Assembly (NCBI GenBank): GCA_001412365.1
Contig: LKUE01000339.1
Coordinates: 1 to 10,042, forward strand
Source of the DNA: Desulfuromonas sp. SDB
GTDB lineage: Bacteria; SDB-A
Direction of reading: 5' to 3'
DNA: 10,042 bases
This document shows positions 196 to 9,027 of the stretch, piece after piece. The notes under the pieces were generated by a model. That model saw only the letters and a program-made list of their open reading frames with translations. It was not told the origin of the DNA and searched no databases. Numbering within the stretch: the stretch's first letter is position 1; every line of letters begins with the position of its first letter. A program made the position numbers and the translations under genes.

Positions 196-495
196 ATGAA
201 CAAGGGCGAATTAATTGAAAAGATCGCCAAAGATACAGGGCTTTCCAAAGCTCAGTCTCAGAAATCTTTAGAAAGCTTTGTAGATGCAGTAAAAGGATCT
301 CTGAAAAAAGGTGATAAGGTAACCTTGGTTGGATTCGGAACTTTCAGTGTAAAGAAAAGAAATGCACGTAAGGGAAGAAATCCTCAGACCCAGGAAGTTA
401 TCAAAATTAAAGCCAAGAAAGTTCCTCATTTCTCACCTTCTTCTCATTTGAAAGATACAGTAGAGAAAGCGAGAATTTCTAAGAAAAAGAAATAA
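196..495 (+). CDS. HU/IHF-family nucleoid DNA-binding protein
   Basis: A 99-residue histone-like protein of the HU/IHF family. As a dimer these proteins bend and compact chromosomal DNA and assist replication, recombination and transcription. The N-terminal helices (residues about 1-40) carry the family pattern of MNKGELIEKIA. GFGTF is at residues 47-51, and the DNA-gripping arm carries ARKGRNPQT (57-65), the family signature. The usual VPxFxPGKxLK segment is altered to VPHFSPSSHLK (76-86). Typical HU is about 90 residues; the extra length here is a basic tail ending in four lysines, which may add non-specific DNA contact. The start is fixed by a strong promoter and Shine-Dalgarno site. HU versus IHF subunit cannot be decided from sequence alone. 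It is probably transcribed mostly as a monocistronic unit, because a strong terminator follows 34 nt after the stop. Confidence 0.95.
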   Translation: MNKGELIEKIAKDTGLSKAQSQKSLESFVDAVKGSLKKGDKVTLVGFGTFSVKKRNARKGRNPQTQEVIKIKAKKVPHFSPSSHLKDTVEKARISKKKK

Positions 496-524
496 TTCTG
501 GAACTTAAAAATTTTAAGATCCTA

Positions 525-1091
525 TTGGCCTCCGCCTCCCCTCGGCGGAGGTTTTTTTTAGAGCAAAGCAAAGTTAATTTTGAGGTGTGGACTCCCCATG
601 TTGCAGAAACTGTAGAACCGGGGGAATTACCCAGGGACTATGCCTGCCGAATTGCTGAATTAAAATTTAAAGCAGCAAATCGGAGGTTCCCGGATTGTCC
701 TCATATCATCATCGCTGCCGACACCATAGTATCACTGGGCACAGAGATTTTTCAGAAACCGGAAAATAGAAAACAAGCGGAAGTTTTTTTAAAAACTCTT
801 TCCGGAAAATGGCATCAGGTGATTACTGCACTTTGTTGCGGTCGGGGTAACCATATGATTTCAACCACCGAAGTTAGTGAGGTTCATTTCTGCAAGATAG
901 AGGAACAATATCTGAAAATTTATTTAGATTCCAAGGAATGGTGTGATAAGGCAGGTGGCTATGCTATTCAAGGATTAGCGAGTTTTTTTGTTGATGAAAT
1001 TAAGGGAAGCATGGATAATGTTATTGGATTTCCTTTTAAATCTTTTATAAGATTATTACATGAATATAAAGAGTTTAAATCTGGCCGGTGA
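525..1091 (+). CDS. maf: Maf-family nucleoside triphosphate pyrophosphatase
   Basis: Maf proteins hydrolyse non-canonical or pyrimidine nucleoside triphosphates (dTTP/UTP and modified bases) to monophosphates in the cytoplasm, as house-cleaning enzymes. Seen here: the signature ASASPRRR at residues 2-9, AADTIV (64-69) with the catalytic Asp, QKP (77-79), TLSGKWHQV (91-99), and the DKAGGYAIQG block (141-150) followed by GSMDNVIGFP. The dTTP/UTP type (YhdE-like) is the closest fit. The coordinates use TTG at 525, the first canonical start, but this removes the beta-strand normally preceding the signature. The frame is open back to 483 and reads NFKILLASASPRR, so the true start is probably non-AUG near 495-498 (ATT or CTG), directly at the HU stop. 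No clear Shine-Dalgarno site is visible. The gene overlaps the next one by 32 nt. The family call is firm and the start is not. Confidence 0.88.
   Translation: MASASPRRRFFLEQSKVNFEVWTPHVAETVEPGELPRDYACRIAELKFKAANRRFPDCPHIIIAADTIVSLGTEIFQKPENRKQAEVFLKTLSGKWHQVITALCCGRGNHMISTTEVSEVHFCKIEEQYLKIYLDSKEWCDKAGGYAIQGLASFFVDEIKGSMDNVIGFPFKSFIRLLHEYKEFKSGR
529..559 (+). terminator. Intrinsic terminator overlapping the maf 5' coding region
   Basis: A perfect 8-bp G+C-rich stem (CCTCCGCC at 529-536 pairing with GGCGGAGG at 544-551) with a 7-nt loop is followed directly by eight T residues (552-559). This is a textbook rho-independent terminator placed 34 nt after the HU stop codon. It lies within the maf reading frame, where it encodes the Maf signature ASASPRRR. 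It should end most HU transcripts and let only read-through RNA reach maf and the pil genes, unless a promoter further in serves them. Confidence 0.75.
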
Positions 1092-1582: not shown

Positions 1583-3289
1583 ATGAAGATTGGTGAAATA
1601 TTACTTAAACAAGGGGCAATTACTAAAGAGCAACTGGAGAAAGCATTATTAGAGCAGAAAAGGCAGGGGGGCAGATTTGGCAGTGTATTAATTCATTTAG
1701 GCTATATCACCGAAGGACAGCTGATCAATGCCCTGGAAAAAAAACTTCATGTCCCCAGTGTAGAACTCAGCAATTTAAATTTAGACCGCAGTGTGATAAA
1801 TCTAATTCCTGCTGATTTAGCTTTGAAGCATCAAATGATACCTATATCCAAAGTGGGTAAAACAATACGGATGGCAATGGTTAATCCCTTTGATCAAAAT
1901 GCAATTGAGTCAGTTAGATTTGGCTTGGGTTATGATGTGGAAGCGGTAGTGGCTGCGGACCGGGCAGTTCAAAATTCTCTTAAAAAATACTATAAAATTC
2001 AAAAGGCTCTGGATAAAGTTACTTCCTCTTTGGATTTAGCCTCTGAGGAAGAAATGCTTTCTTTGGCTGATTCCACCGAAGTAGGCAAAGGTCCCATGGA
2101 CTTGGATAAGCTGGAGACCAAAGCAGTTTCTCCCGCTCAGCAGTTTACCAGTAAAATTCTTAAAATGGCGGTGGAAAGGAAGTGTTCTGATTTTCACATT
2201 GAACCTTACGAAAAAGAAGTAAGAGTGAGGTTTAGAATTGACGGTATGCTTCATGAAATATCTTCTCCTGGATATCAACTGCATCAGAGTATAGTTACCT
2301 ACATAAAGTTACTGGGAGGGATGAAACCTGATGAACGAAGAAGACCCCAGGACGGAAGAGTAACAATGAAGACCAGCAATAAATTGGTTGATTTCAGAAT
2401 TGCGGTAGTTCCCACTATCTTTGGAGAAAAAGTGGCAGTCCGGGTTTTAGATAAATCATCAGTCAGTTTTAATATCAATGAATTAGGAATGGACAAGGAA
2501 GGCTTAACTTTTTTTAACAGAGCAATTCATAATCCCTACGGGATAATATTGGTTAGCGGTCCCAGTGGCAGCGGTAAAACTACAACTTTGTATGCAGCCC
2601 TTAATGAGATCAACAGCAAAGAAATTAATATCACCACTGCTGAAGATCCAGTGGAGTATATTTTACTGGGAATAAATCAGGTTCAGATGAACAGTGCCGC
2701 AGGATTAAATTTTGCTTCGGCGCTAAGAGCTTATCTTCGTCAGGATCCCAATGTAATTATGGTGGGGGAAATTAGAGATAAGGAAACTGCGGAGATTGCG
2801 GTGAGAGCTTCCTTGACCGGGCATTTGGTTATGTCCTCGGTTCATAGTAATACTGCTGCGGCTACTATAACCAGATTGGTAGAAATGGGAGTAGAACCGT
2901 TTTTGATTGCCTCAACTTTAACCCTGGTTGTTGCCCAGAGGTTAATTAAGAAGACTTGCCCCCACTGCCGCAGGCAGATAAGGGTTTCCCAGGAAAGATT
3001 GAAAGAAGTTCACATTGATCCCGGCATGTTTGACGGGATTGCCTTGTATAAGGGAATAGGTTGCGACAAGTGCAATAAAACCGGTTATCTGGGGAGGAGA
3101 GCAATATTTGAAGTTATGTATATCTCCCCCGGGATTAAGGAATTGATCTTAAAACGGGCTACCTCTGATCAGATAGATGATTTTGCGGTAAGGGAAGGAA
3201 TGGTAAGTTTAAGGAAATCAGGTTTGAAGGCAGTATTAAATCAGGAAACAGACCTGGAGGAAATAATTAAGGAAACTGCGGAGTTGTAA
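1583..3289 (+). CDS. pilB: Type IV pilus extension ATPase PilB/GspE, paralog 1, with c-di-GMP-type MshEN domain
   Basis: A 568-residue hexameric secretion ATPase that drives pilin polymerisation at the cytoplasmic face of the inner membrane. The N terminus is an MshEN domain with two 24-residue motifs, 2-25 (starting KIGEILL) and 31-54 (starting RFGSVLI), separated by exactly 5 residues, the arrangement known to bind cyclic di-GMP. A linker (about 140-185) leads to the N2 domain and core ATPase: PQDGR (255-259), Walker A GPSGSGKT (326-333), Asp box AEDPVE (353-358), Walker B with E396 in VGEIRD, and the His box HSN (421-423). A zinc site of paired cysteines follows (C459/C462 and C494/C497), typical of PilB/GspE and absent from PilT. 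Length is normal. The ribosome binding site is weak and the start sits 1 nt after the ComEA-like gene, so coupling is likely. The Thr-to-Ser change in Walker A is conservative. Confidence 0.95.
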   Translation: MKIGEILLKQGAITKEQLEKALLEQKRQGGRFGSVLIHLGYITEGQLINALEKKLHVPSVELSNLNLDRSVINLIPADLALKHQMIPISKVGKTIRMAMVNPFDQNAIESVRFGLGYDVEAVVAADRAVQNSLKKYYKIQKALDKVTSSLDLASEEEMLSLADSTEVGKGPMDLDKLETKAVSPAQQFTSKILKMAVERKCSDFHIEPYEKEVRVRFRIDGMLHEISSPGYQLHQSIVTYIKLLGGMKPDERRRPQDGRVTMKTSNKLVDFRIAVVPTIFGEKVAVRVLDKSSVSFNINELGMDKEGLTFFNRAIHNPYGIILVSGPSGSGKTTTLYAALNEINSKEINITTAEDPVEYILLGINQVQMNSAAGLNFASALRAYLRQDPNVIMVGEIRDKETAEIAVRASLTGHLVMSSVHSNTAAATITRLVEMGVEPFLIASTLTLVVAQRLIKKTCPHCRRQIRVSQERLKEVHIDPGMFDGIALYKGIGCDKCNKTGYLGRRAIFEVMYISPGIKELILKRATSDQIDDFAVREGMVSLRKSGLKAVLNQETDLEEIIKETAEL

Positions 3290-7380: not shown

Positions 7381-9027
7381 TTGAGTAAAACCCAGAATAA
7401 GTCTATTGATCTAAAGGATAAACTGATAGCAGTTTACCGTCCCTTTGTATTTTTCATTATTTCCGTGTTGGTGACCCTTCCCCTCAACCGGTTTAAGATA
7501 AGTTTAGTAGCATTGATTTTCCTTGTAGCTGCCCTTACCAGTTTAATGGACATATTTTTAGTTACTAAGAAAAGTAAGTTATGGTTGCTTTCTTTAGGAT
7601 TAGACTGCTTGGTCATAGCCATGCTTATTTTTATTTCAGGAGGGGTGGAGAGCAGTTTATCCATGATCTATATTCTGATCATTTTGATTTACACTCTTAA
7701 GCGGGGACAAAAAGCAGTTTGGATTTCTTCCGCCACTTCCATTTTAACCTATTTTGTTATTCTAATTCTCCACTGGAAAGGGATTCTGCAAATTGTGGAT
7801 AAATTATTTCACCTTGCTTTATATGAGGGGGAAAAACCCATATCCTTCAACTTTTTAGTTGTTCAGTTCAGTTTTTCAGCTGGTTCGGTACTGATTATTT
7901 CAGCAATTGCCGCGTGGATGGAAGAGAGAAGTGCTAAAAAAACCAAGCAGCTTGAATATGTTAAGTACACTACCGATGATATTCTCAGAAATATGGATGA
8001 AGGTGTTCTTACTACCGATAATTTAGGTGAAATTGCCTTTGTCAATCCTCCCTTTGCTTTATACACTGGTTACAATATGCTTAGCAAAGGTCAACAGATT
8101 CCTGATGAAATTTCAAAAATAATTGAAGAACAGCCTGAGGAATTGAAATTAATAGGCATTGACGGGCTGAAGCGGATTCTATCCTGCAGAGTCGCCACCA
8201 TGATGGATTTGAAGAGAAGGATAATTGGGAATATGATTGTACTTCATGATTTAACTGACCTCAGGGAAAAGGAAAAGAGGTTAAATGATATCAAACAAAT
8301 TGCGCTGATGGGTGAAATGAGTGCGGGAATAGCTCATGAAATTAGAAATCCTCTGGCTTCGATCAGGGCTTCCGTGGATGTACTGTATGACGATTTCACT
8401 CCTGAAAAAAAAGAATTGGCGGATATTGTTAGAAGTGAAGTGAGCCGGATAAATAATCTGGTGGAAGATTTCCTTAAATTATCCCGGCTGCCTGAACCTA
8501 AAAAAGAATTAACCAATATGAACAGCTTGATTAAGGATGTTAAAAAATTATTCTCCATATCTAAAAAGGGTGCAAATATTGAAGTGAAAACTTCAGTTTC
8601 CGATGAGTACATAACTGCGGAAGTAGATAGAAGTCAGATTATTCAGGTAATCATGAATTTACTTAACAATGCCAGCGATGCTCTGCAGAAACAGGAAGAA
8701 AAAATCATTTCAATTAAACTTAACCTTCAGGGAAATCAACTGTTGATTGAAATTCAAGATAACGGAATCGGGATTAGCAGTGATAATATAAAGAAAATTT
8801 TCAATCCTTTTTATTCGGGGAGCAAGGGAACCGGCTTGGGTTTATCTATTGTAAAAAAAATAATTTCTCATCATGACGGTGATATATGGGTGGAATCCGA
8901 ACTCAATCAAGGAACTGTTTTTACCATATCCATCCCCAGGGGTGATGATGAGGAGGATGAAAAAGAGAGCCCGGAGCAGCCTATGGATAAAGCAGAAATA
9001 AGTTTTAGAGAATGGAATGAAATGTAA
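7381..9027 (+). CDS. pilS: PilS-type membrane sensor histidine kinase
   Basis: A 548-residue sensor kinase. About six hydrophobic segments with short loops occupy residues 21-178, as in PilS, which senses pilin levels inside the membrane. A PAS-like region (about 195-290) follows, then the H box with the phosphorylated H319 in AHEIRNPLASI, the N box NLLNNASDAL (427-436), G1 DNGIG (460-464), F box FNPFYSG (474-480) and G2 GTGLGLSI (483-490). It has an unusual acidic tail beyond the ATPase domain (about 521-548). The TTG at 7381 is the best start available; the first in-frame ATG would remove part of the membrane region. No Shine-Dalgarno site is visible before it. The preceding pilC and following NtrC-family regulator support the PilS assignment, as does the same order in Geobacter. 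Confidence 0.9.
   Translation: MSKTQNKSIDLKDKLIAVYRPFVFFIISVLVTLPLNRFKISLVALIFLVAALTSLMDIFLVTKKSKLWLLSLGLDCLVIAMLIFISGGVESSLSMIYILIILIYTLKRGQKAVWISSATSILTYFVILILHWKGILQIVDKLFHLALYEGEKPISFNFLVVQFSFSAGSVLIISAIAAWMEERSAKKTKQLEYVKYTTDDILRNMDEGVLTTDNLGEIAFVNPPFALYTGYNMLSKGQQIPDEISKIIEEQPEELKLIGIDGLKRILSCRVATMMDLKRRIIGNMIVLHDLTDLREKEKRLNDIKQIALMGEMSAGIAHEIRNPLASIRASVDVLYDDFTPEKKELADIVRSEVSRINNLVEDFLKLSRLPEPKKELTNMNSLIKDVKKLFSISKKGANIEVKTSVSDEYITAEVDRSQIIQVIMNLLNNASDALQKQEEKIISIKLNLQGNQLLIEIQDNGIGISSDNIKKIFNPFYSGSKGTGLGLSIVKKIISHHDGDIWVESELNQGTVFTISIPRGDDEEDEKESPEQPMDKAEISFREWNEM

Follow-up and report, generated by a model that had tools for sequence, protein, structure and literature searches.

A putative intrinsic terminator of hup situated within the catalytic-motif codons of maf in Desulfuromonas sp. 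SDB and three relatives of a second genus

The gene hup of Desulfuromonas sp. SDB is followed by a G+C-rich hairpin and a run of eight T residues, both located within codons 12–21 of the downstream gene maf, and sequence comparison suggests that this element is very probably the intrinsic (Rho-independent) terminator of hup, with the same bases under a dual constraint as RNA and as protein. The hairpin with its U-tract, its position behind hup and its placement in the maf frame are common to two genera, and the synonymous sites of the element are conserved between them.

Results and discussion

The hairpin and T-run downstream of hup

The window, i.e. the whole stretch of DNA that was analysed (10,042 nucleotides, contig LKUE01000339.1), contains the following features in and around hup:

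126–153, + strand: predicted σ70-like promoter of hup (TTGACA, 16 nt, TATATT), with 11 of 12 consensus matches
183–189, + strand: hup Shine-Dalgarno sequence AGGGAGG, from sequence reading; a GGGAGG motif is present upstream of hup in the relatives too
196–495, + strand: hup, HU-family DNA-binding protein of 99 aa (PF00216, E = 3.9e-34), stop codon at 493–495
496–528, + strand: spacer of 33 nt between the hup stop codon and the hairpin, also containing the start region of maf
529–551, + strand: putative terminator hairpin, arms 529–536 and 544–551, loop 537–543 (sequence reading, scan, fold and relatives)
552–559, + strand: T8 tract (U-tract), codons TTT TTT TT(A); the relatives have T7 here

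When read directly, the hairpin consists of the 5' arm CCTCCGCC, the loop TCCCCTC and the 3' arm GGCGGAGG. It had been described in the original prediction as a perfect G+C stem of 8 bp, and the 8 bp, the 7-nt loop and the T8 were all recovered, but one of the pairs is A-U, so that only seven are G-C. Additional G-U pairs are possible between G527 and G528 and U552 and U553. The stem starts 33 nt past the TAA of hup, with the start of the downstream gene, which has the same orientation, falling in between, and from position 528 the maf frame reads GCC TCC GCC TCC CCT CGG CGG AGG TTT TTT TTA, which is A S A S P R R R F F L. Hairpin and T-run together encode ASASPRRR-FF and part of the Leu, and their placement in the maf frame, proposed from the start, was confirmed by this reading and by the Pfam identities of the genes.

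Folding of the RNA in a 61-nt context gave -19.4 kcal/mol and a z-score that is modest by itself (z = -1.96). Scoring was also performed with D, a measure of the d'Aubenton-Carafa type that combines stem energy and T-tract. D is 41.7 at the window site; over 404 kb of the genome only two further sites reach D of at least 30, one of them ranking higher, and block-shuffled sequence contained 0 such sites and no terminator as strong. This agrees with the claim that a strong terminator-like element stands where the hup transcript should end. Over the window and its relatives D ranges from 38.9 to 41.7, and the other strong sites in these genomes are mostly intergenic or just past stop codons. A simple consensus scan found 9 terminator-like sites, compared to 9.0 in shuffles, with the window site as the strongest, and no match to Rfam families was found within the window. 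The genome is sparse in intrinsic terminators, with three strong sites per 404 kb, and this counts against the terminator reading. Nor is the U-tract compelling by itself: of the two Phe codons TTT is the more frequent, and 45 runs of at least 7 T were counted in coding sequence over 300 kb.

When analysing the region upstream of hup, a block with the sequence TTGACAAATAC[AT]ATGTTT[TA]GTG (126–150 in the window) was found to be kept in both genera, more strongly than the remaining upstream sequence. In two of the relatives (G001 and G003) this block holds a dyad, ACATTG-N7-CAATGT, which is a candidate operator.

Conservation of the element in a second genus

The sample of the phylum consisted of four genomes from one family, that of the window and three (G001–G003) from another genus. 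The gene order hup-maf-comEA-pilB is kept in all three relatives, and their HU proteins are 75–78% identical to the HU of the window. In each of them the element CTCCGCCT-CAAGC-AGGCGGAG-TTTTTTT (T7) is located 31 nt past the hup stop codon, with a loop of 5 nt and a T-run that begins one base earlier than in the window, and it encodes ASASSRRS-FF. Loss of the stem or of the T-run from a genome retaining hup next to maf had been named beforehand as evidence against the original prediction, and all three second-genus genomes were found to keep both. A genome-wide motif search revealed exactly one copy per relative genome and 0 matches with the reversed control. The possibility of a repeated element was rejected on this single copy per genome.

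The two versions of the hairpin have a 7-bp core in common, formed in the window by 530–536 with 544–550. Outside the core the window has an extra G-C pair (529–551), and the relatives have an extra A-U pair on the loop side, at the places of 537 and 543, which is possible because AGG stands for the synonymous CGG. The amino acid changes P>S and R>S leave the shared core intact, and the synonymous differences (TTG/TTA, TCC/TCA, CGG/AGG and TTA/CTT) are all situated outside it. The stem is constant across the genomes, and no compensatory double changes (covariation) were seen among the four; few independent events are represented, since there are only four genomes from two genera and three of them carry an identical motif.

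The maf gene, its start and the predicted termination

Downstream of hup the following genes were identified:

495–1091, + strand: maf, Maf-family nucleotide pyrophosphatase (PF02545, E = 1.6e-50; TIGR00172; alignment)
1060–1581, + strand: comEA-like gene, helix-hairpin-helix protein (PF12836, E = 1.4e-16), in the same order as in the relatives
1583–3289, + strand: pilB-type ATPase, next in a putative maf-comEA-pil operon (ORF list; homologous ORF in the same position in the relatives), named from sequence similarity and not from a family scan

Residues 8–190 of Maf cover positions 1–186/187 of the PF02545 profile, so the hairpin is in the frame of a real gene. In the numbering of YhdE, the universal Maf motif includes Ser10 and Arg13, and Arg12 marks the YhdE subfamily (PMC3899018). 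According to our own mapping, by alignment to the Maf motif, the loop of the hairpin encodes the equivalent of Ser10, and the last base of the loop together with the 3' arm encodes both arginines. In the second-genus Maf, at the equivalent of 540–551 in the window, a Ser replaces the usual Pro of ASASPRR, with the Ser and both Arg of the motif retained.

No ATG, GTG or TTG precedes TTG 525 in the maf frame of the window (483–527), and TTG 525 itself is disfavoured as a start because the first beta strand would be lost. The start of maf in the window is probably a non-canonical codon, either ATT 495, overlapping the TAA of hup, or CTG 498, and such a start would fit weak initiation. In the relatives maf starts with GTG, 8 nt past the hup stop codon.

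In the mechanism proposed here a polymerase from the hup promoter would transcribe hup, form the G+C-rich hairpin and pause on the U-tract at about 557–559. The ribosome finishing hup would halt 33 nt before the stem and could not block the hairpin, and most transcripts would end there, a minority reading through into maf, comEA and perhaps the pil genes, which would be expressed at a lower level. The 5' arm corresponds to A-S-A, the loop to S-P, the 3' arm to R-R-R and the U-tract to F-F of the Maf catalytic loop, and because the same bases encode this loop, RNA and protein would constrain each other. Terminators that follow a stop codon by only a few bases were blocked in an E. coli system, and termination was maximal beyond ~27–30 nt (PMC4824070); the spacings of 31 and 33 nt are just beyond this threshold, and by analogy efficient termination is predicted. 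Termination activity, read-through and a throttling of maf and the pil genes are what we infer from these data, and the insulation of hup together with the throttling of the downstream genes fits the arrangement.

The original prediction also held that translation of maf through the hairpin could relieve termination, which in its full form would make the element a translation-controlled attenuator, where ribosomes on maf melt the hairpin and the translation of maf sets the expression of the pil genes. The hairpin is in the maf frame, 34 nt past the earliest plausible start, and ribosomes are able to block terminator hairpins in leader peptides, as for pyrL (PMC5021804). However, in E. coli the efficiency of a terminator at 30 bp from the start of a second ORF fell by only ~10% on translation of this ORF, as ribosomes do not catch up with the polymerase over the first 100 bp (PMC4824070). 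By this precedent translation of maf would relieve termination only to a slight degree, and together with the lack of a canonical start for maf in the window this weakens the proposed relief. With neither a pause site nor a leader peptide identified, an attenuator must be considered unlikely.

Messages terminated inside the second ORF left ribosomes without a stop codon in E. coli (PMC4824070). For the putative hup terminator, weak initiation of maf at ATT or CTG would limit the number of ribosomes stranded on terminated, stop-less maf fragments. Three of the four genomes, including that of the window, contain a tmRNA that scores above the cut-off of its family, and rescue of stranded ribosomes is therefore available and may act on maf fragments.

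A hairpin acting after transcription, as a brake on maf translation, an RNase barrier or a 3' stabiliser, appears improbable. A stable stem at codons 12–19 could slow ribosomes, and the 3' arm (544–551) holds a GGAGG that resembles a Shine-Dalgarno sequence and is sequestered by CCTCC of the 5' arm; no start codon suitably spaced from this GGAGG and common to the relatives was found. A post-transcriptional role would, however, leave unexplained both the U-tract adjoining the hairpin in the two genera and the distance of 31–33 nt from the hup stop codon.

Synonymous-site constraint on the motif codons

Synonymous sites around the hairpin are close to saturation. Identity at the four-fold sites of maf is 31–43% between the genera and 29–53% within the second genus, and with sites so diverged the shared motif codons are not due to recent ancestry. 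When comparing the three relatives, codons of the motif are identical in 12 cases out of 12, versus 12 out of 64 elsewhere in maf, counting codons whose amino acid is shared (Fisher p = 8.7e-8, with codons assumed to be independent), and this supports the earlier suggestion that one sequence is under both RNA-structure and protein constraint. The motif is also the longest run of identical codons in the maf genes of the relatives, 12 codons, with the next longest being a single codon. Across all four genomes 6 of the 8 hairpin and T-run codons are identical, as compared to 61 of 330 in the remainder of hup, maf, comEA and pilB (p = 0.001, under the same assumption), a test that includes the window which prompted the study whereas the comparison of the three relatives excludes it. 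Rare codons are used in the stem of the relatives, CGG making up 5% of the Arg codons and AGT 7–8% of the Ser codons.

The peptide could in principle account for the element without any RNA function, since SASPRRR written in TCC, GCC and CGG codons self-pairs and FF gives a T-run. This was addressed by synonymous recoding with the peptide fixed and with genomic codon usage, which gave a stem of at least 7 pairs plus a T-run in 0.7–1.8% of cases, and in 46 out of 40,000 (~0.1%) when 10 or more pairs, counting G-U, were required together with a T-run. A peptide that favours pairing does not, however, explain the full codon identity in three relatives at near-saturated synonymous distance, the rare codons in the stem, the near-constant spacing to hup (31–33 nt) or the lack of such an element in those Maf motifs of other lineages that were read. 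After the recoding and the codon-conservation test, a chance by-product of the peptide was rejected as very improbable. A T7–T8 tract directly 3' of a hairpin is a known slippage context, but programmed transcriptional slippage giving a second Maf product is hardly credible here, as a shift of +1 or -1 leads to early stops and to no product common to the four genomes.

Specificity to this lineage

Among 33 Maf loci of other lineages none had an HU gene near maf within the fetched flanks, and none of the 21 Maf motifs read from other lineages contained a hairpin with an adjoining T-run, by which the hairpin as a general feature of Maf genes was rejected. Some G+C-rich Maf motifs of other lineages do self-pair, to about -14 kcal/mol, with no U-tract, and FF after the arginines is tolerated, as two Maf of Flavobacteria type have KRFF (AGA TTC TTT and CGA TTC TTT), with no such T-run. 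A pattern search of 386 genomes for the Maf signature directly followed by T7 found, as the only maf, the one of the window genome; the pattern misses the relatives, where the T-run begins one base earlier, and the remaining 9 matches are not Maf-like by sequence. A scan of viral contigs gave no match, and a Maf search of genome contigs revealed seven Maf genes, all from Bacteroidota and none from this phylum. In the open-access literature nothing specific was found on hup-maf-comEA-pilB or on the same arrangement.

A second hairpin behind pilC

In the three relatives a second hairpin, GGCGATAG-CTTT-CTATCGCC, with a pyrimidine-rich tail containing T8–9 behind it, is situated 49 nt past the stop codon of pilC:

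G001 L083, 7103–7122, - strand: pilC-side hairpin
G003 L085, 6749–6768, - strand: pilC-side hairpin
G002 L105: the same junction

It is located in the first codons of a gene for a PilS-like kinase and encodes EA[IV]AFYRPFFFFL. The synonymous differences are found in the loop or just past the stem, save one TTT/TTC in the tail, and the stem itself shows a single change, from A-U to G-U. Codon identity is 8 of 11, versus 74 of 265 elsewhere (p = 0.003). The main T-run begins 5 nt past the stem, and with D below 0 the element is a poor terminator by the same score. At the corresponding place in the window (~7420–7435) only a weak stem with no adjoining T-run was found.

The two elements, hup to maf-pil and, in the second genus, pilC to the PilS-like kinase, allow the tentative and rather doubtful suggestion that this lineage recurrently places terminators in the first codons of the genes that follow, to step down expression along a cluster, with the protein partly shaped by the RNA signal. 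The FF of Maf could be an example of such shaping; the majority of other Maf proteins carry an acidic residue and leucine at this place.

Comparison with known systems

Predicted terminators inside genes are usually dismissed as noise or as premature termination. Here one of them apparently serves the upstream gene and is conserved at codon level in the catalytic motif of an unrelated enzyme, with synonymous sites elsewhere near random. It offers a compact natural case for the co-evolution of an RNA signal and a protein, for terminators placed just inside an ORF and for the fate of ribosomes on truncated messages. Terminators internal to ORFs are already known (PMC4824070, PMC7815308, PMC10319736), and what is notable here is the conserved dual coding in a catalytic motif.

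With intrinsic terminators in general the element shares a G+C-rich stem, a short loop and an adjoining U-tract, here 31–33 nt past the stop codon, but it is not intergenic, being contained entirely in the downstream coding sequence. A close experimental parallel is the terminator tR2 of E. coli in construct W48 (PMC4824070), which stands ~30 nt inside a second ORF behind a first one and is expected to work despite translation; that arrangement was engineered, whereas the present one occurs naturally, is conserved and specifies an enzyme's catalytic motif. RNA 3' ends with intrinsic terminator scores have been found inside ORFs in E. coli (PMC7815308) and Borrelia (PMC10319736) and likewise represent terminator-like structures in coding sequence, but they come from 3'-end mapping, while the present element is supported by comparative evidence and apparently acts for the gene upstream. 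Finally, leader-peptide attenuators of the pyrL-pyrBI type also have a terminator overlapping a translated frame; in maf, in contrast, the overlapping frame belongs to a complete enzyme gene, and elements for pausing or sensing were not found.
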